A stretch of DNA of 64,000 nucleotides from Boletus sp. NGJ (Eukaryota; Basidiomycota; Agaricomycetes; Boletales; Boletaceae): NCBI GenBank assembly GCA_019096195.1, contig JAGTXK010000134.1:1-64000 (forward strand), written 5' to 3'. How positions within the stretch are numbered: the stretch's first letter is position 1; the number at the start of each line of letters is the position of its first letter. The notes under the pieces were generated by a model. That model did no database searches, was not told the DNA's origin, and saw nothing but the letters and a program-made list of their open reading frames with translations. A program made the translations under genes and the position numbers. Positions 29,591-56,008 of the stretch are shown piece by piece.

Positions 29591-29914
29591 GTAACCCTTT
29601 GGCAGTTTCTGTCTGTAATTTGACTGCCCGCGCGAGCTGCAATAGACGCTCGTCGTCCTCAAAAGTCAAAATTGACGTCGAGCCTTCCCTCGGTTCAAAG
29701 GAAAGGTTGGGTGCGACACTGTCCTAGTAACTTTCTAGTGAAGTGGTGACTTAGTAGTCGCGAGGCCGGGACTCCACACCGGAAAACGGATGTATTCAAA
29801 CTCAAATCTTGCCAAAACTTCAACCAGAAGCTGACATCTTCCTGATTCTTCCCTGACTACAATCATGGAATTGTGCGTTGACCTTCAAGAATCGTTCAAT
29901 CGTTCTGCCCCGAG
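29591..29914 (-). promoter_or_regulatory. NEO1 upstream region
   Basis: Unique sequence between the NEO1 start and the first base of the KDZ terminal repeat. There is no gene, and no clear promoter element was recognised. The accessory region begins at its right edge. Confidence 0.4.
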
Positions 29915-29967
29915 CCCATGTGGTCACATTCACCCGTAGCATACGGAGAGCCTGCTTGCAAAACACC
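29915..29967 (+). repeat. Left terminal repeat of KDZ copy 1
   Basis: CCCATGTGGTCACATTCACC leads into TAGCATACGGAGAGCC and the core CCTGCTTGCAAAACACC. It aligns with 56447-56503 and with the reverse complement of 49138-49192, at roughly 80 percent by eye, and best over the inner 31 bases. It marks the boundary between the host island and accessory DNA. Confidence 0.65.
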
Positions 29968-29998
29968 CCACCCTTGGCACCACTTTTTTTTGGTTCCC

Positions 29999-30051
29999 AT
30001 GGTCTTACAGACCCATTTTCCCCTACAACAAAAATTGGTCTGTGAGACCAT
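29999..30051. repeat. Hairpin-forming inverted repeat
   Basis: ATGGTCTTACAGACC at 29999-30013 pairs with GGTCTGTGAGACCAT at 30037-30051 with one mismatch around a 23-base A/C-rich loop. It sits just inside the KDZ end. It could be the relic of a small palindromic element or a subterminal transposase site. Confidence 0.6.
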
Positions 30052-30164
30052 CCCTCTCAAATTGCTAGCCCTGTAATCCTTTTCCAGTAGTAGGGACTTG
30101 TGCATGACATTCAATGTGCATTGTCTGGGATCATTATGGACTATGCCCTCTGCATGCACAATGT

Positions 30165-30425
30165 CTGTTAGAGCCTCTTGGAGTCTTGGAGTTTTTTTTT
30201 TGTCTCATTCTCATTCTACTTAATATATCTACTTCTACTTACAAAAAACATGCCTACCACCCTTGCCTGCAGTGCCTCACTGCACCCTCTACATGTGTGA
30301 TGAGTCTGTTTGAGCCTCTTGGAGTCTTGGACACTTTTTTCATCATCATTATTCCATTTGATGTATCTACTTCTATTTACAAATACACACCTGCTGCCCC
30401 TGCCCACAGTGTCTCACCCTCTCAC
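30165..30425. repeat. Two-copy direct repeat, about 120 bases each
   Basis: Copy one (about 30165-30290) and copy two (about 30305-30425) share GAGCCTCTTGGAGTCTTGGA, TATCTACTTCTA(C/T)TTACAAA and the following CCTGC..CAGTG segment, about three quarters identical by eye. No coding sequence was recognised. Confidence 0.6.
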
Positions 30426-31624
30426 TGCTGCCCTCACCACCCTCTCACTGTCCAATGTCACCAATGTGCTGTCCTTGAGCTCAGTGCTCACCCTCCAAGT
30501 CTCACCATCACACTCACCCCTACCCTTGCCCCATGCCCATGGATGTGCAGGCACATGTTGTTGCACATGTTGCTGTTACTGTTGCTGTCACTGCCATCCT
30601 TGTCCTCCTGTCCTCCCCTCCCCCTCATCCTCATGTGCTGTTGCTTCCAAGGGTGACCATACCATGCATGCATTGGCATTGTGTGGGCACTTCTCTTGCC
30701 CTTGCTCTCAGCTGCTGGTGCCAAAGGACAAGGGAGAAAAGCAGACAAATGGTTCAATGGTCAGGGAGGTTGTGGCAGAGTGCAATGGGAGACTGAAACT
30801 CATGTGGAAGGAAGAAGACCATTGGATTCTTATAAGACGATTGAAACCTGTGCAGCTGGGTCCACTTTGACTGGCCCATGTTGATGTTGTGTGGCTCTTG
30901 CAGGACTTTAACATTGGTCTTGCTGGAGGTGGCCTCTTTGCCAAAGTAGGTGAGTATAAAAACTATATTTTGAACAGGCTCACATGTCCAAAAATTCAGC
31001 ACATTGTGGTTGACAGTGTATCTACCCACTTTTATAGCACTCAGTCCTCTCACTTCAAGCCTGAAGGCCATCCATTTATAATTGGAGAAGAACATGTGTG
31101 AGTTGGCAGACAAAGTGCTGTTGCTTTGCTCTACTTGATGTTGTCCTTGACAGGTGGTGTCCTTTGCAGAATTGGCTCTGGATAAAATTACTGAAGTGAT
31201 CAAAGATGTACAATATCAAAGCAAGGCTAACCTCAGTCTCATACCCTTGATGTTGGGTTATAGCCTTGCATGATTACAGTTGAAACTATCAATCATGGAT
31301 ATTGCTGACATTTCAATAATCCTATGCTCCCCACAATTGTAATCCAACTTCTATTTAGTTCCTGTGGATGCCGCAATGAAGAACAATGACACTGAGACAC
31401 CCATGTCCCCCCATCTGCTAAAGTCTCAATCTAATCCATGCCATGCTATCAAGTATGAACAGTCACTCAACATTCTGGCATGTCATCACTGGCCTTGACC
31501 CTATCTGGGAGCCATTGTTGCATTGGTATGGATAAATTCACAAGGTCTGAGGGTTGCCCTGGCAGAAGGTGTCTGATGGATCAGTTAACAAAGACGGTAG
31601 AGTGCAGCATATATATAAGGTTTG
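30426..31624. other. Subterminal KDZ sequence, nothing recognised
   Basis: C-rich low-complexity sequence up to about 30650 gives way to plain sequence with short open frames and no domain I recognise. It contains the word GTTGCTGTTACTGTTGCTGT near 30570. It could be decayed element sequence. Confidence 0.35.
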
Positions 31625-32535
31625 TGTTACAATCTTGTAATAATGGGACATGTGACCTGAGTGAACCAAAGGTAATCTGGGTTCCACTAGGACCTGAGAT
31701 CTCTGGGATGACCTGTCCTTTGACTCTGAACTCTTCTGGAATTCCCCATGAACTCCCACTCAAGTATTATCATATCCTGCCACCTTCTAAGGTGATGCTG
31801 CCATCACCCTGGCAGTGAACCACAGCCTCCTATTTCACCTCTCTTTCTATTTTACCTTTTGATCCATAGATAATGCCTCCTTGGCTGTGCTCTCTTGCAC
31901 ACAGCCCAGTATTTCCAATCTACCATTTGACTGATGTCTTGTTCTCCTTATGGTAATATTTGACCCAAGTCTCATATTACCTTATATGATAGAAAGCCTG
32001 TCCTAAACTGGCAAAGTCTATTTATACGGGTGTCACCCCTTGATGTATTCCCTAACCTTGATCTACACAAATCAACCTGAGTGTACATCATCTCTGCCTC
32101 CCCATCAACTTTTGTTCCTAGAAGCTAAAGCTAGAAGCCCTGCTTCTTCTCATGCTACTGATTATCACAGTCACCAGCTTCTTTGTTTGCTTTGCATCCC
32201 ATTAGGGACAGGGCGAAGCCATTCTTCTTGGTATTGGCCCAAGGTTATAAGAGGCATCTACTCTACAGAGGTAGAGTAGGTAGCATAAATCTCACGGAGC
32301 ATACATCACAGATGGTTGCTGCTCTGAGATACATTGGGAGCTGGGGACATCTTTGTCACTCGTGTATCAGTGTTAGAGGTGGTGATCCTCAACACTTTCA
32401 AAGCCTTGCTATAGTACCCACCCATCAACTGGACCCTTGCCTATTCAGAGGAAGGGAGAGTAGCAGGTCCTAGTGGAACCCAGATCACCTTTGGTTCACT
32501 CAGATCACATGTCTCTATGTTACAAGGTTGTAACA
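31625..32535 (-). repeat. LTR of the Copia fossil
   Basis: The segment begins TGTTACAATCTTGTAATAA and ends AGGTTGTAACA. Its outer 70 or so bases are an imperfect inverted repeat of each other (for example GTTCCACTAGGACC against GGTCCTAGTGGAAC). The middle matches the solo LTR at 6058-6933. It lies directly beside Copia reverse transcriptase sequence on the minus strand, in the position of a 3' LTR. Confidence 0.65.
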
Positions 32536-32559
32536 AAAGGTAGCACCATAATTGATATT

Positions 32560-33810
32560 AGAAATCTGCAAGAAACCCTAAGCCATGAGCCATGCTTTGT
32601 AAACCAAGCCACTCTTATTGTCATCCTTAAACTTGAGGACCCAATGACATTCAATTGCCTTGCAACCTTCCAGTAGATCAGTGACTTTATACATGTTCAT
32701 GTTATGCATTGTCTGTAACTCTATTTTCATTGCTGCAAGCCACTGCTCATGATCAGGCCTTAACATGGCTTTGTTATAAGTGGCTAATGGAATCAACATA
32801 TTGTAGTCTAGGAAGGAAGGGTCCTGGTGTTTGTTGCTTCTGATGGCAATGTTGGCTTGTTTCTCAATGATGTGGGCCTGCTCCTTAATAGCTATATCTG
32901 CTGCAATATCAGAGACATTGCTATTTGGCTTAATAGCCCCTAGGGAGTCAGTGTTCACATCCATTACCCTCTTTAGTGAACCACCCTGTGAAGGCAATGC
33001 CTGGTGGGCTATTACACATACACAGTGATCTCTCAACTCATCCAGATGGGCCTATATGGCTGCACATTCATCTGCATAGGCCTTCCCAGCCTCAGTCTGG
33101 TGGTGGGCACACTTAGACCTGTGGGGCACTATGGGTAAAGTGGGAGGAGGGGGCAGCCATCACACTGGGAGTGGGCAAAGGCAAGACAGGTGATTCAGAT
33201 GCCAAGACTGTGGTAACTGCAGTTGCTTGAGAGGGAAGGACAGGAGGAGGAAGAGATGAGGCAGGATCATTCTCATCCTTGTTGTCACTGCTGGATGTAC
33301 TGTGGAAGTGACCCTCATTGAATGTGATATTGTGCACAACAAAAAACATGCCACTGATGGAGTCCCACAAGCAGTAGCTCTTTACCCCCTCTGGATAGCC
33401 CAGAAAGACTGCTTGATGTGATTTTGACCCAAGCTTATGCTGTAGCTTGGATAGAATATATGCCCAGCAGCACAACCCAAAAACTCAGAGGTGTAATAGG
33501 TCAGGCTTCCAGTGATGAACCATTTCGTAAGGTGTTTTTCCTGGTGGCAGGGCTATGGATTCAGTGCAGTTCCACAGATAGGCAGTAGTGAGCATGGCCT
33601 TACCCCAGAAAGTCAAGGGCAAGCCTGCTGCCTTAAGCATAGCAAGTGAATGGCCTTCAAGAATTTGAATTGCCTACTCAGTCTTCCTATTCTGCTGATG
33701 GGCATAGGGCATGGATAGCTGTCACTCAATCCCAGCCTGTTCCAATGCCTTTGTAAACTCTGTGCTGAGAAACTCCCCACTATTGTTGGAGCAAAATGCC
33801 TTGATTCAAC
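32560..33810 (-). mobile_element. Ty1/Copia fossil, integrase and start of RT
   Basis: On the minus strand, the integrase core region lies at about 33800-33490 (SMPYAHQQNRKTE-like and GKTPYEMVHHWKPDLLHL-like sequence). Its C-terminal part HKLGSKSHQAVFLGYPEGVK lies at 33475-33113. The reverse transcriptase start HEQWLAAMKIELQTMHNMN, with WVLKFKDDNKSGLVYKAW, lies at 33036-32578. Together with the LTR at 31625 it is an incomplete, broken element. It adjoins the minisatellite at its right edge, so it sits inside the KDZ left end. Confidence 0.8.
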
Positions 33811-34797
33811 CCTTGATGGATACAACCACACTGCACAGGGTGGGGGTGACCCAGGTCCGATGTATATGACCGCACTGAGAAGTGTGAGCATGACTGCCCT
33901 TGATGGATACAGCGAGACCGAGCGGGGTGGAGGTGACCAAGTAGCGATACATACGACCACATTGAGCAGGGTAAGTATGACTTCCCTCGATGTATATGGT
34001 GGGACCGAGCAGGGTAGAGGTGACCAAGTACTGACATATATGACCACACTGGCAGTGTGCATTTGGCTGACCTCAGTATAGACAGTGGAACTGAGCAGGG
34101 TGAGCATGACCGACCTCGATGGATATGACCACATCAAGCATGGTGGGGTTGACCGATGCATATGATCACACCAGGCGGTGTGAGTGTGGCCAACTTCGAT
34201 GGATACGACTAGACTGAGCAGGGTGAAGGTGACCAAGTACAGGCATATGCAACCACACCAAGCAGGGTGAGAATGGCTGGCCTCAATAGATATGGCCAGA
34301 CTGAGCAGGGTGGAGATAACCAAGTACCACTGGATATGGCCACACTGGGGAGGGTGATTGATCTTGACTGATCTCAATGGATATGACTGGACCAAGCAGG
34401 GTGGAGGTGACCAATTGCCGATGTATGTGACCACACCGAGCAGTGTGAGCATAACCGACCTTGATGGATATGCTCACACCAAGCAGGGTGGGGGTGACCA
34501 CGTACCCATGTATACAACCACACCAAGCAGTGTGAGCATAACCGACCTTGATGGATACAGCCAGACCAAGCAGGGCGGAGGTAGCCAAGTGCCAATGGAT
34601 ACAGCCACACTGGGGAGGGTGACTATAACTGACCTCGATGGATACAACCAGACTGAGTAGAGTGGAGGTGACCAAGTACCTGTGTATATGACCACACTGA
34701 GCAGGGTGAGTGCGACTGACCTTGATGGATATGGCCAGACTGAGCAGGGTGAATGCAACCGACCTTGATGCATACAATAGGACCGAGCAGGGTGCGG
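33811..34797 (+). repeat. Minisatellite array, left subterminal (KDZ copy 1)
   Basis: This is a tandem array with a half-unit of about 40 bases, typified by GATGGATATGACCACACCGA then GCAGGGTGGAGGTGACCAAG, alternating with a variant carrying GCAGTGTGAGCATGACCGAC. The last unit (GACCTTGATGCATACAATAG) is shared with the inner edge of the arrays at 47731-49016 (reverse orientation) and 56634-57522 (same orientation). The array is open in several frames on both strands, so long open frames here (for example 33613-34452 minus) are not evidence of genes. Confidence 0.9.
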
Positions 34798-34949
34798 ATT
34801 ATTGACTGCTGTATATCAGACTGAGGATCATGCGTTCATGTGTGGACCAACCAAGCTCAGTTTTGGCCTTGAACTGAGTCCAAATATTCCCTTTCATATG
34901 ACCATAATATCTATATGCTATTGATATGGCATATATGTCTATTCTAATG

Positions 34950-35814
34950 TTACACACGCTGCTCTTGAATATATTCTAGCATATCCAATAGCCTTACCTG
35001 AGTCTGAAGCAGTTCCATCCTCTGCTGTGAGGCCTGAATAAACAATTCTGTGGCCATTTCCATCACCATCTGAGCAAGCAGATGTTCAATTGGTTGATGC
35101 CAAATGCTGGCTACCTCCTCCACCATGCAATCAACCATTGCAGCATTTGCAAACACTGCCAATATCCTTAGAATAAGCCATTTACAGCATGATTATGTAC
35201 CCACCAAAATCCGGAATTCCCTCTATCTTGACACCCTGTTTGGCAAACCGATCACACTCAGCATTGTTTCTTACAGCCACTACATTCAGACAAGACGATG
35301 TGACATACATTATTGAGGTGAGGTAGTGAATGAACTTACACTGTTGATCAATGGTCTTCATGGCCTCTGCCTGATGCTTTTTTCTTGCATCACGACCGAG
35401 CAACATCTGCACATTCTGCTCTCACTCACCTGATCGATGCTTTCGAGCGGGTAGATCCATCTTGCCCATGGGGTGAGGCAGTGTTTGAGGTAGACAGGCC
35501 TGTGCTGTCTTCTGTGAGATGGAGGAGGGGGAAGGATCTTCGGCCATTGGAATGAATGGTGGTGGCGTTGGGATACAGATGTCATTTCGTAGAAATGGAG
35601 GAGGTGTTGGGATGTGGGCACTTGCAAACACAATAGGCCAGACATCAGGCATTGTGAAGGGGGGTGGGGTTGGTAAGCAGGCGCTGGTGAAATCAGTAAA
35701 GTTGGTTGTCATCAATGGTGGCTGGTAGGGTTGGAATGGAGGCAGGGTGGGAATGCGCCAAGACAGGTCTGGTGCATCAGGCATTTCTAGATCTAAAATG
35801 CAGTCAGTTACCAA
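34950..35814 (-). pseudogene. Cargo gene A, uncharacterised, PTPPPF repeats
   Basis: On the minus strand the protein starts near MVTDCILDLEMPDAPDLSW. It has three spaced copies of an (I/L)PTPPPF motif (for example HIPTPPPFLR and CIPTPPPFIP), then KHRSGE-stop-EQNVQMLLGRDARKKHQAEA in one frame. The stop is TGA and could be a mutated CGA. An intron at about 35340-35281 (GTAAGT..TAG) leads to NNAECDRFAKQGVKIEGIPDF. Another short intron leads to NAAMVDCMVEEVASIWHQPI, and the end is a Gln-rich helical part. No known domain was recognised. A further 5' exon may lie at 35870-36067. It is divergent from cargo gene B, with about 0.4 kb between them. Confidence 0.5.
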
Positions 35815-36242
35815 TTGAGTCCATGGTCACCCATGTACCAATGGAGTCTGATTCATGGTATGCCAAGACAGTTGATTGATTGTGTGTGGCTGAGGCGGCA
35901 TCTGAATTCAATGTTTTTTGGGTTGAAATTTTCCTGGGACAAGCTATGGCTGCACTCACCTGGTATTGTGAATCAAACTTGCTTTTGCATTTGGGAGTAT
36001 GTTTCGAGATATGGAAAAAATAAAATGGCAGGGAAGGAGAGAACTCAGATTGGGTGTGGTGATGCATGTGGTTAGCTGTGGAATGTGCAGTTATTTAGGA
36101 GATTTGGACTATGATGCATTAGCTGTAATTGCTGAGCAACAATGGCAGAGAACTAAACAATGGTAAATGCCATTTGGTGTAGCAAAACTTGCCATGCCCT
36201 GCACATCATCTTCCATTACATTCTCCATCACCATACATCACC

Positions 36243-38221
36243 ATGCCCTCCACAATCCAAACCATCATTGACAATGCCACAGCCGCCATCTGGCATGTGA
36301 TCAAGATCAAAGTGCTCAGCATGACTGATGGAGCTGCTGCTCAGACAGAAGCATGGCACCAGGCCATCACCAAGATCATGGGACAATTGGTATGCAATCA
36401 TATTTATCATACCCCAAGCGGCGAACTGACCTTGTTTGCCAGGACACGATTTGGGCTGTGGCAGGTGGTGCCGAGAGGGTACCTCTGCTGGCTGTCGCAT
36501 GTGACATTGAGATCTTGCAGTATCAAAATAGTTGATGGCTGGACTAGAGCAAGATCTTGAAGAACGATGTTTCCAGTTGACCAGACCACCCTTGGCTCAA
36601 GGCTGGCCCAGCCAATTTGGGAAGTGAGGGTGCAACTTCCTCTGCGCAGGTTGCTTGGCCATTGGGCTGGCAGACAGACATAAAGGTTTGGCCGGCCATG
36701 AAGATGCAGGATGGTAATGACATCAACATCGAAGAACAGCAGATGGCGCTAAAGAAGGTGAACAAAGGGAAGGGGAAGGCTCAGCAGATCAACCCACTGG
36801 AAACCGACTCTGAAGACTGGGGTTGCTCAAGGCAATGTGTTAAGCTATCAGATGCAGCAAGCATTGAACGATCTCATGGACACTCTGCAGCCAGGTCACG
36901 GCCACCACCACCACCTGCCAAAGAGATCGCAGATGAGGCCGACGCTGACCAGGTATGTGCTGCCTGCAAACGCTGCGGCAACAGGTGTACTCCAAATCCT
37001 GGCCATGCCTGTGTCCAGTGCCACCAGCAGAAGGTGCGATGCTCCCTGGCAAGGTCGCTCCAACGATCGACTTCCCATCATCGCCGATCTCCACCCTTGG
37101 AAAAACCACAGAAACGACGGAAATGCAGTGAGTCTCATGCTCGGCCACCTCCATCAAGAATTCTACACCATGCCCTACCGCCACCTTTCACCCCTGCACC
37201 ATTACCAACCGTGTGCATCCATGTCGTGGACTGACCACAACCGCCAAGCCAGTGCCGACGATGAAGATTGGCCCCCTGCAAAAGAAGGTTAAACAATCAA
37301 AACCAGCACAAGGTAAGTCACTCAATTCACAATATTCCAGCCTCTCAAGTTGATTACACAGTCCTGGAAGGTGTGGTGATCACCAGGGTCAAGAAGTCAG
37401 TGCCTGGATCACAAGTACCAGGCCCATCCACCACCGCAATATTGGGCGATGCTCAGCCTGATTATGCCGAGCCTGATGACAAGGGCAACTATGATGCTCT
37501 TCTTCAAGCATACTGCCAACTGCAGGCTAGTCACCGCCAGCTGGAAGCAAGCCACTCATAGCTCGAAGATCGAGTGAACACAATGGTCAGATTGTCACCA
37601 ACCTCAGAGACCATCACATTGGAATCCCAGACCATATGGTCTGTTCCTCATCCACCACCATGCGCTTTCCATTCCAACGAGTTCCTCAATAGGCCAGCGA
37701 TGATGCGATCGCTGGAATACCAGCTTGGGCCTTCATCAAGGTGGTGACCAGGCCAGACATGCACAGCTCCCCACTTTCCCCAACTCCGTCCCTTGGCCAG
37801 CATGCCGGTGAATTTGACATAGACTCCCCCGAAGCCCCCCCTCCCTTCTTTGACTAAGGATGCACCCCCTCAGGTGATTGCTCCCCTTTCCCGTCGAGCT
37901 CTACCGCCTCACATTCAGGCTGGTGCCACTGTCAATTGGGGTGCTGGCCTGAGTGTAATCTCAGGTAGAAGATGGGGGCCTCCCCAGCTCTTTCCCCTGC
38001 TCCCATCAATCTTTGATCACACAGCAGTGGGGACTTCCACAGGTTTGATGCCAGGATCCACCGTGTCATTGCCGACCATCACCTGTGTTCACGCCGAGGA
38101 CAACAACCCCATGCAAACACAGGGTGTGGCTGAGGATGATGCCATTACCAAAGAGCAGGCTGCCGGTGAGGATGAGGAAGATGCCAAGGCGGAAACTGGG
38201 CAACACTCGGCCCATCCTTAG
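36243..38221 (+). CDS. Cargo gene B, Cys-cluster protein (Zn2Cys6-like)
   Basis: The plus-strand exon starting MPSTIQTIIDNATAAIWHVI (36243-36389) is followed by an intron to 36442. Later exons (about 36617-37234) encode a Lys-rich stretch, a Pro run and the cluster CAACKRCGNRCTPNPG then HACVQCHQQKVRCSLA. The spacing of six or more cysteines is reminiscent of fungal Zn2Cys6 DNA-binding domains, but the N-terminal half is atypical. A helical segment YDALLQAYCQLQASHRQLEA (about 37490) suggests a coiled coil. The last exon ends with acidic GEDEEDAKAETGQHSAHP (38221). The exon model is approximate and a few stops may mean partial decay. I recall similar Cys-cluster plus coiled-coil proteins in repeat-rich Agaricomycetes; function unknown, possibly DNA binding. 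Confidence 0.45.
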
Positions 38222-38592
38222 ATTCGTATTGCCATTTGTTTCGCCAAATTGTAAAGTAGATATTGTAGGTATGTATGATACAGAGTATATATGGCTATTT
38301 TCTGGGCTGCCGAGTTCCAGGTGTTGATGCATTGGCATCAGGTGGCTGTGGAGCCTTGTGCACCCTTCCTGATCGACGCAGAGTTGTGCCTTTTGACAAA
38401 ATGCCAGTGTCAGATGTGATTTAAAAAGGATGAATATTCGCGTACCTTGGATTCAGGCCCCTGTCTCATTCGATACCACCAGGGTGCGAGCTCGGGACCT
38501 TGGTTTTTGCCCGCCCTCAGCTCCAACATGACTGGCTGGTGGCAATATACTCGGCTTTTTTAATGCTGACTTCAATTTCTTTTTGGGGGGTG

Positions 38593-40968
38593 CTAAGGGT
38601 GGATATTGAATCCATTAGCCTTGTCCATCCGGAGCGAAATCAAGCTATATACCTCAGTCACTGTCATCGCTAACCGAGAAAAGTCCTCTTCATCGTTGCT
38701 TTTCGGCAAAGGATGCTCCTTCGGCATCGGCATCTTATCCCTCGAGCCGTTTTGTTCGGCACTCCTGTTCCGACTGTCCTGTGGGGGCCTATAGACCAAT
38801 GATTTGCCTAGTTGGGGTGACGGCATTCGCCCAAGTTGCATGGTCGGCCTTCTTGGCATTTCTGGGCAGTCCAACTTTGAATCGTTCTTGTGGATGGTGG
38901 GGCCCGCCCTTTGGATTCTGGGTTGGCAGTCGTCCAGCTACAAATCCAGATCCATGGCATCAATGACGTGATATCCGAAGCAACTAACCGCTTACCATTT
39001 ATGGAGGTCCCGATGTTGATCGGCCTCGGTCGCCCATCCACCCCACTCTGGCCCCTTTGGTCACCACTGCTCTCCGTTTGGGGATTTCTTGCGGACAATC
39101 CTTTGGCACTGAATCAGTCGAATGAAAGCTCCAAAATGCACTTCTGATGCCATACCACTGTGTGTAGGGGCACCCGCCTTAAATGACACCATTTTCCGAG
39201 GAAGGTCCCCAGCTTCTTGTTCGGTCTCTGACCAATCACTGTATGGGGCAGATGGGCTCCTGACCACCTTGCGCTTCCCATTTCATTTTGTCGGAACTGT
39301 ATCGCACTGAATCTTCTTCCTCCAAGGTCGATTCATCCTGGCCACCATTATCCTGGCCATCGATCGGAGCCTCAGAGGGCCTCTTTGCCCTTAACCTTTC
39401 TGGCTGAGATCTCTGCTGTCCCCTCAGCTCTGTGGACCCTTCATCATTGCTCTCTGCTGGGTCCTGAAGCTCATACTTCCCATCCAACCAGCATTGGAAT
39501 TCAAAGATATCATTCGAGTGCATCCCATTGTTGTCGATTCTGAATAAAACTCCAGAAATCGTTTTGCGTCATTGGCCTTTAGATGGCTAGGATCATCAGG
39601 AAAGATGAAGCCGTCTGGAAGATGTTCAGACCGGAACAAGTCATCCTGGAACTCGGCCAGCTTTTTGAATGGGGCTGAGACCTTCTGGATTTTTGCATAT
39701 CAAGCCTGGGAATCATTAATGTTGTGCATGGCGGTTAGATATAAGGCCGAATGTACGGTAGTGTGAGGTGAGAAAGCCTCGGACCATATTTTGCATATCA
39801 CCTTGGTTTTGCCCGGTGAAATCTGGGATCCAGATGGAGCCATCTGATTGAGTTACCATGTTCACCGCATCGTCTCCTTGTTTCTGCCTTGGCTTTCTCT
39901 GCCTTTTTGCCTCGGCCTGGCCCAAATGCTCATCTTTGTCATCTGCCTCCACTTCATCCTCTGTAGGAGCAAAGCAGCTGCCGAGATACCTATCCCAGTC
40001 CCCCTGGATTGCGTCGAAGCCTTGGAAAGACGGGCCCTGTTCAATTGCCGAGTTGAAGTCGAAGCTTATGTCGGTCAGACTATGGGAATGTCGGAGTGCC
40101 GAGAGTCCACCCACTGGTTTGAGAACACCTCCCCTTTCTCATCCTTAAACCCACTCAATACGACCATCCGGATCCCTCCTCTTTTCCACATATCCTGAGA
40201 GAACTGCCTCATGGCTGATGCCACACCCCTCGTTGCAAACCTATATGACTTTCAGCAGGTGGCGGATGATTCAATCGGAAACACTTGCCGATGCCTTCGC
40301 TTCGGTCATGGCACCCTGTGAATTCCATGCGGCAGCAGTCGACTCAGCATTCTGGATCTCATCAGAGAGAGAGACCATTCGTGACTTCTGATAGCATCGT
40401 CTGATAATGCTGAAACATCGCCAAGGATCCCGGCTCTGCACGCCGAACCGTTCCTTGATCATCCCCTTGATTTCTTCTTTCCGTTGCTCCTGAATCACAG
40501 ACTGAGCTGTCCATGTCTTGCTGAGGGCGATGCCATCCCTTTTTTCCCCCATGTCTGCCCTTGTTTGTGCATCCATTTCTCATATACCTTTCCAAAAATC
40601 TGGAATCAAATCTTCATGACAGAAACAACATTTCGTTTCTCACCTGAACTTGGTGCTCCCACACTGCATCCTCCAGGGTAAGGTTCTCCCTCAGACACCG
40701 GATCCGAAGTATCAGAGCCCTCCAGATGGTTTGTCGTTTTTTACCTCTGGCAGCCTTCCATGACGGCCATTGCTCCTGGAGAATGCGCAGTGAGTTGTCA
40801 GATATGCTCGGGGTTCTCATGTTGCATCGGATTCCAAGATGGCCCTGCCTCATCTTCAGCCGAGACATCCTTGGCCTGGGGTTCCTCTTCTTCCATCTCA
40901 TCTTGTGAGCCATCATGGACAGTTCCTTGATAGTTGGTCGTGGTGTATTCCATCTCGTTGTCAGACAT
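38593..40968 (-). pseudogene. Cargo gene C, uncharacterised acidic/basic protein
   Basis: On the minus strand it starts MSDNEMEYTTTNYQGTVHDG (40968) with an acidic N-terminus. A SDNSLRILQEQWPSWKAARG segment follows, then KKRQTIWRALILRIRCLREN, before a GTGAGA donor near 40638. Further exons include TRADMGEKRDGIALSKTWTA (40576 leftward), RNAESTAAAWNSQGA-like sequence and an acidic EDEVEADDKDEH stretch (about 39950). The gene ends in a Pro/Arg-rich tail at 38593. I recognise it only as a type of protein repeated near transposons in mushroom genomes. Frame changes between segments suggest several introns or decay. It is convergent with cargo gene B, and its 5' end lies about 0.56 kb from the KDZ transposase start on the other strand. 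Confidence 0.42.
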
Positions 40969-41532
40969 AGTAGAGGGTAGACTCAAAGTGCAGCACAATG
41001 CATTCATTTGTCTTCATCGGATAGTGTTACAACAACCATGTCTCCATGTCACGATCACCGGAGACCGAGTAGCCAAGGTTACACAATAACCGCAATACTT
41101 CCGAAGAGGAGTAAGATATGCCAGGGCTCGGTGCCATAAGTGCCTCGAAATGTCACCAAGAGAAGTCATATAAAATGAACCATATGGCATAGGGCCAGGC
41201 ACCAAGCAGCAAACTTGGTTACGCGATACCGGCAACCCCCCCTGGCAGACATATTCCTCGATCCATGTAATTAGCTGAAGCGATTGTGATCGCAATATAT
41301 CCATACTGTGGGGCATAGCCGAGGTCACCGAATCACAGAAGTGCTGCAGGAGAAATCAAAGTTCCGGTATCCATGGACTTGGTTCTCGACTAGCCGAGAT
41401 GAGACACTACAGCGTCCGAACAAACCACGCGGGTGTACATATGCATTACTGATTTGTGTTTCGGCTCACAGTGTAAAGTGTGTTGTATCTGTGTTTTTTC
41501 ATGCTACTGTACTGTCTTCCATTGTCCTAACA
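40969..41532. promoter_or_regulatory. Divergent upstream region of cargo C and KDZ transposase
   Basis: No gene is visible. It separates two genes transcribed away from each other and should hold both promoters. From about 41250 on, it can be aligned with the end of the window in reverse complement, where copy 2 shows many CpG to TpG/CpA differences. Confidence 0.45.
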
Positions 41533-44500
41533 ATGCCTAAGAATGCCTACAAATGAAAGATTAACCCTGGAAGAGTTACACATGCCACTTGGATAACGAA
41601 AAATACCACAAGGGGGCCTAAGATGACTCTTGTCAGATTGGATGCTACCAAGGATCCAACTTCCACAACACCATCCCAATCTGTCCAGTCCACCCCAAGC
41701 AAGCCTGGACCATCTGACTCTCAGTTTACCTTCGGTGCCAGCATGTATGTTCTTTGTCACGTTTAAACTTGCTATTCTGATGATATCCGGTCAAGGCCGG
41801 ATGCTCGCCGATGGAGAATTAGAGGACATTTGGCCAATCCGATTGCCCCCTAAAAATGTACCCATCCTTGATTTTGGTGAATGCACTAATCCACACAAAC
41901 ATCTAGACCTCAAATGATTATCTCCAGTGAATGGGTCACTCACAAGGAAGAATTTCTGCAAGCTGTGTTGGACATGGAAGCTCCCACTGATCCCTGAGAA
42001 TGTTGTATATGCCGTCGGGATGGCATCTATCGGTGTTCGGACTGTTTCGGTCAGCCGCTGTTATGCACCAGGTGCTGTAGGGACCGACATAAGAGGCATC
42101 CTTTTCATCGCATTCAGCAGTGGACCAGGGCATTCTTTGACGATTCATCTCTGATCTTGGTGAGCTTTGTAAAGCATTCCTAAGCCTTGGGTGATTTTGA
42201 GACACATTGCGACAGACCGGCTTTCAGCTCCATCTCGGTCATGATGGTGGGCCATGTCCGAGCGGCGGCCAGAAACGTCCGAATACACCTGACGACCCGG
42301 CATCCATGGATGACGAGGCCTGGGAAGACATCGACCGAGATGACATTCCTCCACACCTTCGTCCGCCAAGTGGGTCAAATTATCTGACGGTGGTCGATGT
42401 GACTGGGATTCATTTCATGACCATCAACTACTGCACATGCCCCAATTCTGACCCAGAATATCTTCAACTTTTGTGGTGCAAGCTTTACCCTGCAACACTA
42501 CAAATTCCAAGGACTGTATTTACCTTTACCTTGCTGGGTGACTTCATCCAAGATAATTTGGAGTGTGGAACATCTGGAATGAACTATTACAGCAAGCTCC
42601 AAAGGATAACCTCCAACGTCTTTCCTCACATTGTGCTGGTAAGTTGCTGACCTGCTTTCTGCATGTCAACTGCTCATGCAGGTCCAGAATCATTACCGAG
42701 AGTTGCTTAGGGTCACTAGACAGTGGAGACTGCTAAAGCTTCTCAAGTGGAATGGCTTCGGCCACTATTCCCGGCAGCCACTGAAGGGAGATCTTGCCCT
42801 TTTTTGCCCTGCATGTCTTCAACCAGGGATGAATGTGCATGTCTCCATCAACGAGCTTTCTGAGTCAGTGATGATATTCGTTCACCGCTGCACTGTTTGA
42901 TCAAAATCCCTACAGCTGGAAGTATGGCTGAACTCTTATCATGGATGGAAACTTCAAGGCTGAACACATGTGGGAGAGACGGCCTGATGACCAAATCTGG
43001 CTGATGGATGGGCTTGGCTTTATGGTAACTTGGCCAAACTATCATGAGTATCTGAAGGAGACGCACCACCCCCTGGAGGTAATCATGCAATAAAGGAATG
43101 CCATTCCTATAATCACTGACATCCATCAACAGAGGTCAAGTTGCAACAATCATCAAGCTGTGAATCAGGCAAATGCCAGCCGAGGCAAATTGGATTCCAC
43201 TGGGATCAGTGGTTCGGCATGTGCTCGGCATGGCTGTTTCGTACCACACTCAGTGGTCGACTTTTAGAAGGGGGAGAGGTAAGCAATCTGCAGGAAGAAT
43301 ATGAATATGCTGATCACTTAGATCCATGCAGGCAGGTGAACATGGACTACTCTTTTGTTAACGCCCTTACCCACAACATGGACAATATTTCGAGCATCAT
43401 AAGTTTCTATGACATCAACTGTTCTTATATGAAGAAGCTCCAAGCTTGGCTACGTGATAATAGGTTCATTCAGCTGCCACCAAATCTGGCCATCGTACCC
43501 GGCATCAGAATGTGGCATGTGCATGGACATCAATCTTCATGTTTTGCTTGGTACTCCCCCTTGTTCATTCCTGGGGCAGGATGGGTCGATGGTGAGATCA
43601 TTGAGACCTTATGGTCTACTTTAAACATTGTGTCCAGGTCTGCCCAAGGAATGACCTCCTCCCATCGGCAAGAGCTTCTTGACTTCCAAATGAACGATTC
43701 CAATTTTATCAAAATGATCAGAATGTGTATGTTCCCCTGTGGTTGTTTACCCATTTATCCTGCCTGTACTCATTGATACCAGCTGGAACTCTGGCAAGGA
43801 AGCTTAAGGCTGCATGGAAATTGTTTGCATTGGCAAGGGTGACATTCCATGCCCTCAATGGGGGAGTTGCCCACATTCAAAGACAGCAGTGGCTGGTTGA
43901 GGAGCAGAGGGCTTTGGAGAGACAAGTTAGTGATCCATCAGCAATGGATATATTCAAGGTGCAGCTACACAAAGGTGAGTTGGAACATGGTGCATATTGC
44001 CACAGAGCTCAGACTGTTGCTCATGCATTGCTGAGTACAGCACTGACCATACAGGCCATTGAGAGGGAAATGCTTGAGGGCGTAACTCACACACCGGCAG
44101 CCCACTTAGGAGTTGCAACATGGCTTGCAAACAGTTTAAAACTTGAAGAGGCACAGATATCACTCAGCAGAGATATGAAACGGATGGCTTCCAGGGCCAC
44201 TGAACTTCAACAGCTGGCCCTTGCTTGCCGAGCTGATTGGCTGGCTGCTGAGATTTCATGCTTCCTTGCTGAAGCTTCCACATTCCTTCGGTTGAAAGAT
44301 GATGACAATGTGGAATCAGACATATCGGATAGAGACAGTAATATCGGAGAGGAAGACATGGTCAATAATCTCAGAGCTAAACAACCTGATCAGGCAAAGC
44401 TGCCATTGCCGTCTAACCTGGGTCATGACAAGTGCATGGTGATCGGTGCTCATCACCTGGTTAAACAGGAGCTCAAACTCCATGCCGGCCAAGCAAATGA

Positions 44501-45196
44501 TGCTTTATATGAAATCTGGCTCACATTAGCAGACAAGGCAGTGTTGTTCCGCACTGATGTTTGGCATGCTTCAAGCCATGCGAAGACAACCAGGGCTTGG
44601 GGAAAGGTGAACACCATGGATGCCTTACTTGCTTGGCAAGTTGCCATATATCGGAAATGCCAATCTGCCATGATAAATCTTTCAGCCAAGGATGACATGT
44701 TGGCCAGATATCAGGTGTTGAAGGACGAGGATCTTAAGGTTAGCACGGTGGTCACTGAGCCCAACTCCTGCAATCATCACACCAACAACCTGGCCTGGTT
44801 CTGGTTGATGGATATACTGGGGGACACTGAGATGAATGACTGGATGTCCAAATGTAAGTTCCACATTCTCGTGAGACCTTTCTGCCGACATTATATATAT
44901 CTACAGTCTACCAGATACATTGGTTGCATGCAAAAGCCACAATGGATCAGTGGGGAGAGGAGGCAGAGCTACTGATGGCTGAGTTTGAATGGACCATTGG
45001 TTACTTTGACCACAAATCAAGAGAATGGGAAGAGCATGCGGCACACAGTCAGCAGAATGACAGCCAAGGAAAAACATGCTATGCTGCCCACCAGCAGGCC
45101 ATCTATGCTCGACTTCGGGAGCAGTGTCGGGCAGAGTGGAAAAGCTGCCAGGAGTCACAACTTATGGAGATGTTGGATGGTAGCCTCTTTTTATAA
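41533..45196 (+). pseudogene. CxC2-KDZ transposase, copy 1
   Basis: The transposase of the KDZ element starts MPKNAYK (41533). The CxC2 cysteine cluster CCICRRDGIYRCSDCF..LLCTRCCRDRH lies at about 41995-42120, followed by FQLHLGHDGGPCP after an intron. The YLTVVDVTGIHFMTINYCTC segment, with the C-terminal half of CxC2 (DLALFCPACLQPGMNV), lies at about 42370-42840; an intron at 42639-42681 has clean borders. The catalytic KDZ core has WLMDGLGFMV (about 43010), FYDINCSYMKKL (about 43405) and a GWVDGEIIETLWS segment (about 43590), which supply the D, D and E candidates. The C-terminal part from about 43782 is helical and ends MLDGSLFL. In-frame stops (TGA at 41554 and 41995, TAG near 43273) mean it is probably inactive. 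The same stop at 43273 is present in copy 2. Confidence 0.85.
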
Positions 45197-45355
45197 GTAG
45201 ACATCATATAATGACAAAAATACACAGCCTGTCTGAAATGGTCATGCATTGTTGATGAATCCGGGATATTCCGAGGTCTGTGGGGGCTGAATATATAACC
45301 ACAGTCTCTCCACACCCTCCATTTCATCATATTCCCCATTCCTCATCATCCTGCC

Positions 45356-46114
45356 ATGGAAACATTTTCTGACAACACACCTGTCACCACTCTCCACATG
45401 ATGCTGTGGTATCAGAAGTGCCAGATTGAAGTGGCTGTGGCACATCTTGCATGACTTCCTGCCGAGCAGTGGCCGGCAACTTGGCACAATAACATGATCA
45501 TGGAATTGGTATGTTTTCCCCATTTCACATTGCAAATCGGCCCTTTGACATTATTGATTTGCAGAATGTCTTGGCCTTTTACTTAGGCCTATATGTGCCC
45601 ATGCACACCATAACTCCGCCAACCCCATCCTGTGCCCAATTCATCAAAGTCGGTGCCAGTCTGGAGAATCTCTAACAGGACATTATCCATGCCACCTTCA
45701 AAATTGACCTTGATGGCATGAAGCGAACCCCAGAGCTCTTACCAGGCTGGCAGCCAAGCGCAGGTGCTCCCACTTGTGGATTCAAGCACCCATTGTGGGT
45801 GGCCAACATTCCAGACTACCACTTCAAGGCATCTCAGTCCTTCATTGCCGATTCCTTTGCAAGGGTGGAAACCTTCTTCTAGGTATGTGAAATGCTTGGA
45901 TCATGGTCGTCAGCTAATTCATTACAAGGACTATTGGCCAATGGATGAGTCTCCATTGGGCAATGCTCACAACACTTAGCTGGATGCCCTGGCGACTGGG
46001 ATTTTGGCTGAGCTTCAGCAAAATATTGCCAAGCTTGCAAAGGCAGAGGCAACAATGATAGAGTCTTGGATAGATATGGTTTGGTTGCAGAGACTGTTTT
46101 GGAAGTGTCAGTGA
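45356..46114 (+). pseudogene. Small third gene of the KDZ element, copy 1
   Basis: The gene begins METFSDNTPVTTLHMMLWYQ about 160 bases after the transposase stop and on the same strand. Exon 1 runs to about 45507 (GTATGT donor). Exon 2 from about 45565 reads NVLAFYLGLYVPMHTITPPT and, later, ELLPGWQPSAGAPTCGFKHP. After an intron at about 45882-45928, a last exon reads DYWPMDESPLGNAHN then ALATGILAELQQNIAKLAKA and ends at about 46114. Splice signals are intact, but there are in-frame stops (TGA at 45452, TAA near 45674, TAG near 45976). It resembles no family I know. Its C-terminus is helical, Ala/Gln-rich. It ends about 165 bases before the convergent dioxygenase. Confidence 0.5.
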
Positions 46115-46278
46115 TGCATGCTTGGCCTGTGATCCAGACTCCTTGTCCATAGTTAATGGTGGTAATTTGTAATTCAAGCTTTACCCAGCGATATCTTGGC
46201 TGACGTTGACAAAGATAATTAACCAAGCACACACTGAGGCAACAAATCTACTTCCGACTTTGACGGCCTGCCTATTCT

Positions 46279-47531
46279 TTATTGTCCTCCCCACATCTCA
46301 TATTTCATGTAATTACAGCGGGAAACATCCATGTATTCATGGACATTGTCTCGCATGTAGTATGAGAGCACCCCCCACTCCCCTTCAACTTGACCAACTC
46401 CATGCTTGAGCATTTGCCCTGAGAATGCGATCACTGTCCCCAGGTCATACCGAAGCTGATGCTTGATGGTGGGGACCATAAAATCTAACCTGGTGTAGTT
46501 GCCAACCGAGACGAGAAGATCCAACCACTGGGGCCTTCTGTTGATATCAGTGTGAAATGGACATGCTTGGTTGGCCATGACAGACACAACATTATAAACC
46601 GATGACCACAAAGGAAGTACATCCTTCATGTCAAGGTCCTCCTGTGTGGCCATCCAGTTGCCAAGCCAAACCAATACCTCCTGACCCGAATCATACATTT
46701 CAGGATGCAGGATGGCAACTGATGCTGCCAAAAGAGTGGAATGCTCTTTCATGGCCAGCAGCCATTCACCATGCTCCACTGTCAGTTTTGGTTGCCTTGA
46801 GCAGTGCCAAGACCTCGGGTGGCCCATTTTCCCCCTGTTGACCAATGTCAGGTTAATGAAAAAGAGGGAAAGCCAAATAAACACCGACATTTCGGCTCTG
46901 TTGAAACCAAGCAGGGGATAGGTTGATCGTCCCTTGCAGCTTTGCCATAGGGTGGAAGTTTGCCTCTGAGATGTGCCAGTGAGTATTCCTGGTCAAGCTG
47001 CAGGAAAGAGGCCCAGAGAGCAGCAGTAGCTGTTCCCAGATGTATTGCTTGATTGATCTGTTGGTGAGATGGTCGCAGCATTTGGGGACATACTCACTTG
47101 GTTAGGTTGACTGATTGCACCGGGTAAGTACCAAAGTAAGACATAGCCTGAACGATCAGTAACAACCACGGGTTCAGTGAGCACAGTATATTCCTGATCA
47201 TTGGCGTCTGATGGCACCATTGAATGTCCCCTCCTTTTGATTCATTCACTGAGCTGAATGATGTCAACATTGCTGATCATCACTGGGCAGGAATGAGCAG
47301 GGCATCATCAAATGTGAGAGCCATACCCTTGTTTTGATATGCTTTTGAAATGATGCTGACCATCCTATTCGCCTCACAAACTGTCTGCACAGGAATGCAT
47401 GGAGGTGGAATTTTTGGCTGACTGTTGTTGTCAGCAGATGGCAGGGAATTCTGAAATCTAGACACCATATAGGCAGCCAATTTATTGGTGTAGCAAATGG
47501 CCCAATTGTCAGGAATTTCGGGGGGGCTCAT
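46279..47531 (-). pseudogene. TET/JBP-type 2OG-Fe(II) dioxygenase, copy 1
   Basis: The fungal TET/JBP family oxidises 5-methylcytosine with iron and 2-oxoglutarate and is known as cargo of KDZ transposons. On the minus strand, exon 1 starts MSPPEIPDNWAICYTNKLAA (47531). A later exon reads EPVVVTDRSGYVLLWYLPGA and ends at 47098. Exon 47057-46885 has AALWASFLQLDQEYSLAHL. The catalytic exon 46834-46279 holds the iron ligands: HxD in CPFHTDINRRPQW, and the distal His in GTVIAFSGQMLKHGV, then VLSYYMRDNVHEYMDV. A Trp lies about nine residues after the distal His, where I expect the Arg that binds 2-oxoglutarate. An in-frame TGA precedes the exon with IKRRGHS. It is therefore probably inactive. This copy reads through LTVEHGEWLLAMKEH, where copy 2 has one base fewer. 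Confidence 0.75.
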
Positions 47532-47730
47532 GGTAAAAGGAAGATCTGAAAGGATCTGGGAAAGCAGGGATCAGGAAAATATATAGAGTGGTAGATTCTC
47601 ATGGAAACTTATGTTTCAAGCGTGAGTCTGGATTTGGAGAATCGTTCACAGCTGCCGAGAAGAGTAGATTTCAGACAGAGCAATGCATTAGCCATAGCAT
47701 CTCCCCATATTCAAGGTGCATCACATGCAC

Positions 47731-49016
47731 TTGCTCAGTCTCTTCTGTATCCATTGCACTAGGTCATACTCACCCTGCTCGATCCTATTGTATGCATCAA
47801 GGTCAATCACACTTACACTGCTCAACCCCATCACATAGATCAGCAAGTGGTACCCCCACCCTGGTTGGTCCTGCTATATCCATCGAGGTAAGCCATGCTC
47901 ACACTGCTTGGTCTGGTCAAATGCATTAAGGTAAGTCACACCCTCACTTCTCGGTCACACCATATGCATCAGGGTCAGCCACCCCCATATTGCTCAGTCC
48001 TGTCATATACATCCGGACTCGGTCGCCCCACCCTGCCCAGCCTCACCATATCCATTGAGGTAAGCCCCGCTCACACCTCTCGGTGTGGTTGTATACATTG
48101 GAACTTGGTCACCTTTGCCCTGCTTGGTCCTACCATATACATCGAGGTCTGTCATGCTCACACTGCTCAATGTAGTCATATTCATCGAGGTCAGTCACGT
48201 TCACCCTGCTTGGTGTGGTCGCATACATCGGTACTTGGCCACCTCCGCCCTGCTCAGTCGTACAGTATATATTGAGGTCAGTCATGCTCACACCACACAG
48301 CGTGGTTGTCTTCATCAAGGTCAGCCCCCTCCACCCTGCTCAGTGTGGTCGTATCCATCAAGGTCAGTTACCCTCACTCTGCTGGGTGTGGTCATATCCA
48401 TTGAGGTCAGTCACACCCACACTGCTTGGTGTGGTTGCATACATCGGCACTTGGTCACCTCCACCCTGCTTGATCCCACTGTATCCATCGAGGTTGGTCA
48501 TACTCATACTGCTCGGTGTGGTCATATCCATCAAGGTCAGCCACCTCCACCCTGCTCGGTGTGGTCGTATATATTAGTACTTGGTCAACTCTACCCTGCT
48601 CGGTCCTACAGTATACATCGAGGTTGGTTATGCTCACCCTGCCTGGTGTGCTTGTATACATCGGTAGGTAACCTCTGCCCTGCTCGGTCTTGTCATATCC
48701 ATCGAGGTCGGCCACCCTCACACCTGCTCGGTGTGGTCGCATACATCGGTACTTGGTCACCTCTGCCCTACTTGGTCCCACCGTATACATCGAGGTCAGT
48801 CACCCTCATACTGCTCGGTGTGGTCGTATACATCGGCCCTCGGTCACCCCCAACCTGCCCGGTCTCGTCATATACATCGAGGTCAGCCACACTCACACCG
48901 CTCGAGTCCTGTCGTACATATCGGTACTTGGACACCCCCACCCTGCTCAGTCCCATGGTATGCATCGACCTCAATCTTACTCACCCCACCGGGGGTTGTT
49001 TCGTATCCATCGATCC
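47731..49016 (-). repeat. Minisatellite array, right subterminal (KDZ copy 1)
   Basis: Same unit as 33811-34797 but in reverse orientation (CACCCTGCTCGGTGTGGTC, then CATCGAGGTCAGTCACCCTC). It is followed at 49017-49137 by sequence shared with 56504-56633 in reverse complement. Open frames up to 364 codons (48085-49179 plus) are by-products of a unit lacking stops. Confidence 0.9.
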
Positions 49017-49137
49017 TTCATCTAGTTACCCTTTCCAGGGCCTTCCATATCCTATGTATATGCATGTTAGGCGGGCCCAGCCATGTCTTACGCATCTCAT
49101 ATATCTCGGGCCCATCACAGTATCATCCATACATGTT

Positions 49138-49192
49138 GGGTGTTTTGCAAGCAGGCTCACCGTATGCTATCAAATTTGACTGCATTATGTGG
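49138..49192 (-). repeat. Right terminal repeat of KDZ copy 1
   Basis: GGGTGTTTTGCAAGCAGG leads into CTCACCGTATGCTA and then TGCATTATGTGG. It is the reverse complement of the ends at 29915 and 56447. Similarity to copy 2 stops just outside, after 49192. Confidence 0.65.
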
Positions 49193-49906
49193 TTGAACAG
49201 GTCTAAAGAAACACGTACGGGATTTTTTTAAAAAAAGTCAGTGTATCCTGAGTGAGACTGCTGGTTCCCAAATGAAAACACACCCATGTCTCACCACCCT
49301 GCCACACCCATTGTATGCTCTGATTTGACCCAAACTGTATTCACTCCCAAAGGTGCTGCTCAGCATGATTCCGGAGTGCATATGTTTTGGGGCCAAACTC
49401 CGTCCTGCAGATTGACGCTGGCAGCTACCAGCCCATCTTTCTCATGAGAGGCCCAACCACGAAAGCCTAAGAAGGACCATGTCAAATTCCAACGAGATTG
49501 TCATACTACATTTCCAGTGATCTGAGAACATCAACGACTTGTGTGGAAGCAACCAAATCTTCCAAGAACACGGGCACAATGAAGAGCAAGCTTGATTTGG
49601 TCAACCAAACTACTCCAGTTGTATCCTGTAGGTCCAGTATGATGGGGGCTGCGGTTGAGTCATGATAGGACATGGTACATGGCAATGCTGCTGAGCGAAG
49701 TGACAGGATAAGAGAGCTGTAAAATGACGCCCATCATGTAGGATGAAGGGAGAGGTTCACGTGTTTTGATTCGAACAGAAAATGGGTATTCTAGTGGGTG
49801 TTGAGGAAAAGTGTTGGAATATCATACAAGATGCTGGTAAAATAACCACAGATTACAAAAACTGACCATTAGTCTCACATGAGTGACTACAGTGACTTCT
49901 TCAGGT
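49193..49906. other. Spacer, no gene recognised
   Basis: Unique sequence between the KDZ copy 1 end and the peptidase gene. No conserved frame is seen on either strand. Confidence 0.4.
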
Positions 49907-50849: not shown

Positions 50850-51412
50850 GGTGCAAATGATGGAGTTGTCAATTTTCAATATAATGAGAGACCATCCTGC
50901 AACCTTTATACGCTTGGCATACATCCTTGAAACGACATTGGCAGGTGTGTTCACCTTTGGGAACCAGAGTACCAACCTGTTCTGTTTTGTGCCATGACCA
51001 ATGAACATGTTCGAGTTGTCCGCCATGTGCCTTTATCTTCGTTTTAGATTACTGTAAACAGCTGAAGTATGTAATCATCATGCATGGGTCATGCAGATGA
51101 GTTATCAGGGTGGCACCAAAGAGTACTATTACTGGAAAGTACTCGACGTGGATGGAGTAGCCGTGTTTTCAACTTTCATGGCACACTTTTCCCAGCTCTT
51201 GTCCAAAAGTGCCCATGTTTTCGATGTCTATGGTGCCGGTGACCACTGGCACCTCAGCATCACAAATATTGCAGAAGTGTGATAAACTCTGGTGCCTCAT
51301 TACAGCTCCCATGTGGTGCTGATATTGTTGATGTGAATGAGAGCAGAGCTACTAATCTGGCCTTTCATCATACCGTAGAATATCATGTCATATCATAGTG
51401 ACCTATAGGGCA
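50850..51412. other. Intergenic, no gene recognised
   Basis: An open frame at 51091-51282 (plus) has no recognisable feature. The region separates the peptidase start from the Plavaka 3' end. Confidence 0.35.
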
Positions 51413-55705: not shown

Positions 55706-56008
55706 TGAAAGGATTCACAAACAACTTTTATTGCAAATGTGAATGGATACAAGGTGTCATTGGAGAAGTTTGGAGCCTGCGCTCGAAAAAGAAGTCAGTT
55801 ACCTGTGAATCCTTGTTAAAGGCAATGAGATAGAAACAGAAAGATAAATATATCTTTCATACTAACTATTCTTGCCAACTGGTGAGTCGTAGATCCAGAG
55901 AAAAGCATCGCACATACCAAATCTTGCAGAGATAAAGAATATTCCCATGGGTCGCAGAGGACTTGAAGCCTCAACACCCATTCTTGTTCCTTGATTCTCA
56001 CCTCAACC
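55706..56008. promoter_or_regulatory. Divergent region between Plavaka and the fragment at 56009
   Basis: A 303-base interval between two divergently oriented starts. No other feature is recognised. Confidence 0.35.

Follow-up and report, generated by a model that had tools for sequence, protein, structure and literature searches.

Can a transposon that carries a gene for a TET/JBP 5-methylcytosine (5mC) oxygenase protect itself from silencing? This question is raised by the start of contig JAGTXK010000134.1 (C133) of Boletus sp. NGJ (assembly GCA_019096195.1; 32.8 Mb, 141 contigs), of which we analyzed the first 64,000 nucleotides (C133:1–64000; hereafter the window). An initial annotation, made from the sequence alone, had delimited here one KDZ transposon of about 19 kb and had proposed that its TET gene relieves the silencing of the element. 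The window copy, termed e1, covers 19,280 bp of assembled sequence (29912–49191, + strand), the left part of which is chimeric. Comparison with related copies in the same assembly led us to another reading, to which we assign a probability of about 85%: e1 has decayed from a KDZ DNA transposon of the cut-and-paste type with five genes, probably a member of the Kyakuja lineage, and its TET gene is probably dead. We regard it as a cut-and-paste element because of its domains, its ends and the target-site duplications (TSDs) of its relatives. All counts across the assembly are lower bounds, as the searches return best candidates only.

Gene content and ends of the element

When e1 was scanned for codon conservation against six other copies, five coding blocks were resolved, namely A (−; 34.9–36.2 kb), B (+; 36.2–38.4 kb), C (−; 38.8–41.1 kb), the transposase (+; 41.4–46.1 kb) and TET (−; 46.2–47.7 kb). 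The claim of a TET gene accompanied by at least four others thus holds. The transposase gene (41362–46106, +) contains a CxC2 block at 42384–42629 and KDZ blocks at 42920–43078 and 43297–43725. Its identification as a CxC2-KDZ transposase was borne out by profile searches, in which the spliced model matched the KDZ domain PF18758 (E = 1e-35; 123.9 bits, cut-off 26.6) and, N-terminal to it, the cysteine cluster CxC2 PF18803 (E = 3.7e-22). The motifs DGNF, FYDINCSY and DGEIIETLW, which we take to hold the KDZ catalytic residues, are all present in e1. Stops interrupt the KDZ blocks in all seven copies that were examined for them; in e1 these blocks contain a single stop, just upstream of the DGNF motif. 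The first and last exons of the e1 transposase model are uncertain.

Convergent with the transposase lies the TET/JBP oxygenase gene (46181–47688, −), whose catalytic exon was placed at about 46297–46779 by Pfam and by alignment with CcTet of Coprinopsis cinerea. The domain PF12851 (Tet_JBP) scored above its cut-off with E = 1.7e-10 on the exon and 7.7e-10 on the gene model, and a match to CcTet (PDB 7vpn, 8jkk) extended over query positions 201–336 (E = 8.5e-17) with the HxD motif, the distal His and Asp337 in register. Hence, the convergent gene with HxD..H motifs had been correctly recognized as a TET/JBP homologue.

The three remaining genes have predicted spliced models in addition to codon conservation. 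Gene A (34950–36216, −; also supported by alignment) yields a model of ~253 amino acids with PTPPPF repeats followed by a conserved C-terminal region, and matched no Pfam or PDB profile with confidence. Gene B (36243–38424, +; ~385 amino acids) contains a Cys-rich motif that resembles half of a fungal Zn2Cys6 cluster at a sub-threshold score (Zn_clus, E = 0.017; 15.6 bits, cut-off 21). Gene C (38789–41097, −; ~480–525 amino acids) is acidic and has uncertain 5′ exons, one model extending to 41583; no confident match was obtained in Pfam or PDB profile searches. Models of these genes were made from six copies each, and the alignments comprise five copies for C (all but C97), four for A (all but C5 and C133n) and four for B (all but C97 and C5). 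As a separate observation, the gene A model of copy C5 (L026–L028) engulfs an apparent transposase, which we take from its motifs to be of the Tc1/mariner type, and here a transposon appears to be nested within a transposon.

Copies flanked by exact 7-bp TSDs served as references to refine the boundaries of e1 from 29915–49192 to 29912–49191. The right boundary was confirmed by a paralogous sequence, as its homology to the contig sets in at precisely 49192. The inverted terminal sequences and the inverted minisatellite arrays inside them, both noted in the initial annotation, were recovered. End comparison among copies identified a left terminal inverted repeat (TIR) with a GAGCCCATG-type end (29912–29970, +) and a right TIR with a CACATNATG-type end (49133–49191, −). 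These imperfect repeats of ~60 bp are identical in 45 of 65 aligned columns and include a near-perfect core (29937–29971 versus 49169–49135; 94% of 35). With up to three mismatches allowed, the core pattern had 49 matches genome-wide, as opposed to none for the same pattern read backwards. In seven copies the TIRs cover about 60 columns with 69–84% identity and the left ends start with RAGCCC; the terminal motifs across the family are RAGCCC and YACATNATG. Some copies also have a left-type (GAGCCC) terminus on the side where TET or KDZ lies (C42:30362–30482, C129:22023–22143, C133:136880 and C101:370336–383460), so that the two end types are not bound to one side. The left subterminal array (33810–34794; 43/87-bp units) and the right one (47732–48984; 43-bp unit) are inverted relative to each other.

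An extra segment of about 3.8 kb (29971–33809) separates the left end of e1 from its left array. In the copies C97 and C33 this distance is about 1 kb at most. We rule this segment out as core cargo because it has no counterpart in these two copies and is very CpG-poor, with an observed/expected (o/e) ratio of 0.04 over 30000–33800. An open reading frame (ORF) within it (32578–33051, −) matched RVT_2 weakly and below the cut-off (E = 0.086).

Mobility of the five-gene unit

The flanks of the element ends were read across the assembly, and 12 end pairs were compared for TSDs. Five pairs showed exact 7-bp TSDs, for which the chance of at least five among 12 is about 7e-19 assuming independent bases. 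The copies concerned span 13–28 kb (C97, 16.2 kb; C33, 16.1 kb; C133:176.7–204.7k, 28.0 kb; C5, 23.5 kb; C101, 13.0 kb), and TET lies inside all of them except the one on C101. At two further pairs, C68 with all five genes and C73 with TET, six of the seven flank bases agree. We also searched for empty sites with the joined flanks of four insertions, using a query that lacked the last 46 letters of the joined-flank sequence constructed, and scored 40 of 201 candidate places. For C33, 34 of these places matched unbroken across the junction with 94–98% identity, the other six being the elements' own flanks. The C33 element therefore inserted into a high-copy repeat, the other members of which are unoccupied.

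Gene neighbourhoods were counted from start points, one or two per locus, that were taken from the match tables (A, 33 of 78 rows; B, 34 of 103; C, 29 of 137; KDZ, 56 of 88; TET, 32 of 57; the omitted rows were mostly further exons of the same loci). Within 16 kb, A was accompanied by B at 31 of 33 start points, C by KDZ at 22 of 29 and TET by KDZ at 22 of 32, compared with 0.03–0.06 expected by chance. The order A-B-C-KDZ-TET was complete in 11 clusters (C3, C5, C17, C33, C37, C56, C68, C97, C128, e1 and e2), and at C133:176.7–204.7k the same order is split by extra sequence and bounded by a TSD. Because the 7-bp TSDs surround shared genes and C33 has empty counterparts, we conclude that KDZ, TET and genes A–C move together as one mobile unit. 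The possibility that A, B and C are random passengers was rejected since at 12 loci they lie in one fixed order with KDZ and TET and within common ends.

Certain loci run counter to the unit. Genes A-B-C occur without KDZ at C11, C26, C35, C50 and C82; C27 has A-B-C with TET and no KDZ, C114 has A-B plus a piece of TET, A-B stand alone at C39, C71 and C133:133.6–134.8k, and gene A is missing from the 16 kb around 36 of the 56 KDZ start points. We take these exceptions to be truncated copies and other kinds of KDZ elements. The initial annotation had stated that its proposal would fall if no other locus had both ends at this spacing, or if A–C and KDZ occurred apart from each other at many sites. 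Other copies with both ends and the same cargo were found, and these refuting conditions were mostly not borne out; the results to the contrary are the loci just listed and C101. Independently of this, the 12 flanking bases are identical at some ends located on different contigs (C35/C50 and C59/C127; L051, L059, L050, L057), which reflects either segmental duplications or leftover haplotype contigs.

Chimeric structure of the window copy

A second, inverted copy, e2, starts within the window (56448–64000, −) and reaches C133:78204 beyond it (21,757 bp). It has the same gene order as e1, and the two are 97.4% identical (e1 31697–48515 versus e2 73509–56740). Window positions 1–31696, which comprise 30 kb of flank and the left end of e1, form a fold-back arm, that is, an inverted copy of C133:76420–108115 with 99.97% identity (10 mismatches, no gaps). 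At 31696/31697, inside e1, the identity drops from 99.97% to 97.4%, and e1 there lacks 2.9 kb of e2. The contig thus starts inside a 31.7-kb inverted duplication whose centre is diverged or unduplicated. The flank 28700–29914 was found twice in the genome, once per arm. The 7 bp adjoining e1 are CTGCCCC on the left and GTTGAAC on the right and hence form no TSD; among the ends read, no left end with a GTTGAAC flank was found that could be the true mate of the right end. The right flank (49192–50469) has a paralogue at C133:387069–388290 (about 93% identical), and the sequence to the left of the corresponding point differs from the left neighbour of e1. It follows that e1 has, in the window, a left neighbour other than its original one. 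When the left neighbour of the paralogue was sought in the assembly, only itself and nine short matches with 74–87% identity were retrieved. The lack of a TSD, the 99.97% identical inverted left arm and the paralogue with a different left neighbour together indicate that e1 is not one intact insertion, and its left end reads as a fold-back of the left end of the neighbouring element.

Concerning the origin of the fold-back, we lean toward a misassembly over a recent rearrangement: the arm ends where the contig begins, which suggests that a long repeat made the assembler fold back. A genuine, recent inverted duplication that arose by template switching or break-induced replication between inverted copies is the less probable explanation, although it deserves serious consideration. 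All 10 differences between the arms lie within 1–17189, nine of them are transitions with A/T in the contig-end arm where the other arm has G/C, and four of these nine affect CpG sites, as real decay would leave; in addition, the junction falls into an inverted-repeat stretch (31622–31696 versus 32538–32464, 89%). However, base-calling errors at methylated CpG could imitate some of the transitions. The junction has no obvious shared bases, and the search of the assembly for the expected left flank retrieved nothing beyond the paralogue and the nine short matches. An arm that terminates exactly at the contig start, a plain junction and a missing flank are usual for assembler fold-back at a long repeat.

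It is highly improbable that e1 is a single, unbroken insertion of 19 kb, bounded by genuine ends at 29912 and 49191 and actively shielded from silencing by its TET. Such a view would explain why the two ends, the two arrays and the five genes occur in one block, and why the catalytic exon of TET is free of stops, but it conflicts with the missing TSD, with the two levels of identity on either side of 31696 (99.97% to C133:76420–108115, 97.4% to e2), with the different left neighbour of the right-flank paralogue, and with the Trp at the 2-oxoglutarate (2OG)-binding Arg position and the strong CpG depletion described below. Of the proposal that the 29.9–49.2 kb block is one unit including A–C, the mobile unit stands for the family, whereas for the block in the window, with its fold-back left end and no TSD, a single insertion is not supported.

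Loss of the TET active site

As reported in PMC11040006, CcTet oxidises 5mC and N6-methyladenine (6mA), its Arg385 binds the carboxylate of 2OG, and an Arg385-to-Ala exchange abolishes activity. The TET of e1 resembles CcTet in its HxD motif, distal His and Asp337 and differs from it in that Arg385 is replaced by Trp, Arg321 by Gln and Gly331 by Arg; its catalytic exon contains no stop. To place these changes in the family, we surveyed 26 TET copies, those among 57 matching rows that span much of the catalytic exon, and counted stops within the aligned stretch. One copy (C44) ends at a contig end before Arg385, leaving 25 assessable for this residue. Position 385 is Arg in only six of them, Trp in 11 and Gln in eight. 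Each of the six copies with Arg385 is interrupted by one or more in-frame stops within the exon; the Asp ligand is gone from two of these six as well, and five have a stop or a different residue at Arg321. Thus, none of the 25 assessable copies combines Arg385 with an open catalytic exon. Position 331 is Arg in seven of the 26 copies, Gly in 13 and Ser in six.

The replacements follow a simple mutational pattern. Transitions at a single CpG codon yield Trp or Gln at position 385, depending on the strand that is hit. Arg321 and Arg393, which this exon likewise encodes by CpG codons, are similarly mutated, in some cases to stops. Given the loss of the 2OG-binding arginine in 19 of 25 copies and the stops in the other six, the TET of e1 is probably dead, and the relief of silencing by the element itself, as the initial annotation had suggested, looks lost in the copies read. 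An intact TET copy may be absent from the assembly yet present in the genome.

It is very unlikely that the Arg-less proteins are kept for a non-catalytic role such as binding of methylated DNA: Asp337 is conserved in all 26 copies, His326 in 24, Asp328 in 21 and His376 in 23, and nine of the 26 have no stop in the compared stretch, six of which (e1, e2, C33, C5, C3 and C56) retain three metal ligands with Arg385 changed to Trp or Gln, but the retained residues mostly have non-CpG codons while the lost arginines, including Arg321 and Arg393 with their stops, are CpG-codon transitions, so mutation alone suffices.

CpG depletion

The CpG o/e ratio was 0.36 in e1 and 0.17–0.54 across seven elements, compared with 1.01 in one host region with a P-type ATPase (20001–29900), which served as the single control. 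Between e1 and e2, 87 transitions were counted at 627 CpG positions versus 52 other transitions in 12,746 sites. A TCG-type hypermutation was not supported, as no TCG preference appeared among the changed CpG sites in three comparisons. CpG-type decay of transposons is described in the pertinent passages of PMC4352252 for basidiomycetes with a Masc2-like methyltransferase, and hypermutation was not detected in Agaricomycotina, as cited in the consulted sections of Kojima 2025 (PMC12730594; all mentions of this paper refer to those sections). Judged from these substitution patterns, the family looks methylated, mutated and disarmed. Neither an intact TET together with an intact transposase nor sparing from CpG decay, as would mark active self-desilencing, was found in the copies read. 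Apart from the elements, 59 of 87 differences in the paralogous pair at the right flank of e1 are CpG transitions.

Classification

Iyer et al. 2014 reportedly associated TET/JBP genes with KDZ transposases, and their abstract is said to mention that some of these elements encode extra proteins, including a divergent HMG domain. No HMG domain was detected in any of the three genes A–C, with limits of E ≤ 1 for Pfam and E ≤ 10 for PDB profile searches.

The domain PF18758 with a CxC cluster N-terminal to it files the element under the KDZ superfamily. An association of TET with KDZ transposases is not new: TET-positive Kyakuja DNA transposons of Agaricomycetes have been published (Kojima 2025, PMC12730594, citing Iyer et al. 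2014). The family studied here shares with Kyakuja the KDZ transposase, the AG-type (CcTet-like) TET, 7-bp TSDs and the presence of several families and copies per genome (PMC12730594). The 7-bp TSDs are a property of the family (five of 12 pairs exact) and not of the chimeric e1, and they differ from the 8-bp TSDs of Zisupton and Dileera, which have the same KDZ superfamily domain (PMC12730594). Of the AG-type TET features, the Tet_JBP domain, HxD...H and Asp337 are present and Arg385 is missing. Position 331 is Gly or Ser in Kojima's description and Arg in e1, and the coding regions of Kyakuja are mostly undisrupted (PMC12730594), whereas no assessable TET copy is intact here. Judged against these published descriptions, Kyakuja membership is probable.

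The main-text descriptions of Kyakuja consulted in PMC12730594 make no mention of genes A–C, and no title on A-B-C genes was noticed in a literature search whose scope excluded supplements and Iyer 2014. Related work examined the TIR motifs of KDZ or Plavaka elements in Marasmius oreades (PMC8290104, relevant sections) and noted that CxC2 regions precede intact KDZ transposons in Pleurotus (PMC7641404, relevant sections). Within the parts of the published descriptions covered, we saw neither the five-gene order nor ends of this structure, nor a loss of TET active site or reading frame as wholesale as here.

Proposed history of the element

We propose that the transposase would bind the ends and the subterminal arrays and move the whole block, and that TET may once have oxidised methylated cytosine on the element, easing transcription or transposition. 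Genes A–C could be accessory factors, with B perhaps binding DNA through its Cys-rich motif. The host would then have won, with methyl-CpG-type decay of the copies disabling TET and transposase. It has been proposed that such TET genes ease silencing (PMC12730594); with a TET of the CcTet type, this proposal fits the origin of the element and not its present state. More tentatively, and with less confidence than we place in its rejection, A, B and C may not be passengers and may belong to the core of an anti-silencing and transposition module, whose arms race with the host was decided by methylation-driven mutation of active-site CpG codons.

Several observations weigh against the reading as a five-gene Kyakuja-like unit that was disarmed by methylation. 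At the ends, no TSD was found at four of the 12 pairs (e1, e2, C114 and C3), and the pair 56448/136880, with six of seven bases in agreement, is 80 kb apart and doubtful. The copy on C101 with an exact TSD consists of A-B-C-KDZ without a TET match, and the C73 pair encloses TET without a KDZ match. The search for empty sites that the initial annotation had recommended was positive for only one of four insertions, as the joined flanks of C97, C5 and C133b retrieved nothing but themselves. The gene models were predicted by conservation scoring on decayed copies, and some introns are possibly artefacts of stop-skipping. CpG depletion is an indirect measure with one host control region, and it extends beyond the family (0.27 at 1–20000, 0.37 in the spacer 49200–56440 and 0.17 at C133:117.5–130k). 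Lastly, Kyakuja-1_LB and -2_LB of Laccaria have CA..TG termini without TIRs (PMC12730594), in contrast to the ~60-bp imperfect TIRs and long inverted subterminal arrays found here; since such ends are stated for two families only, we left the assignment to Kyakuja as probable.

The TSDs and related empty sites provide structural evidence that TET travels inside a large KDZ element, in the company of the three uncharacterised genes A–C. The family also provides a natural test of whether a transposon-borne TET protects its carrier, and in the copies read there was no long-run protection. As the functional arginine codons of TET contain CpG, the gene for the enzyme would itself be prey to the mark that the enzyme is thought to remove.

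Other features of the window

Beside the right end of e1, an ORF at 49907–50359 (−) matched Peptidase_A4 (E = 1.5e-9). The region 1–20000 contains AT-rich, diverged direct repeats, with 2290–6056 matching 14035–17801 at 80% identity.

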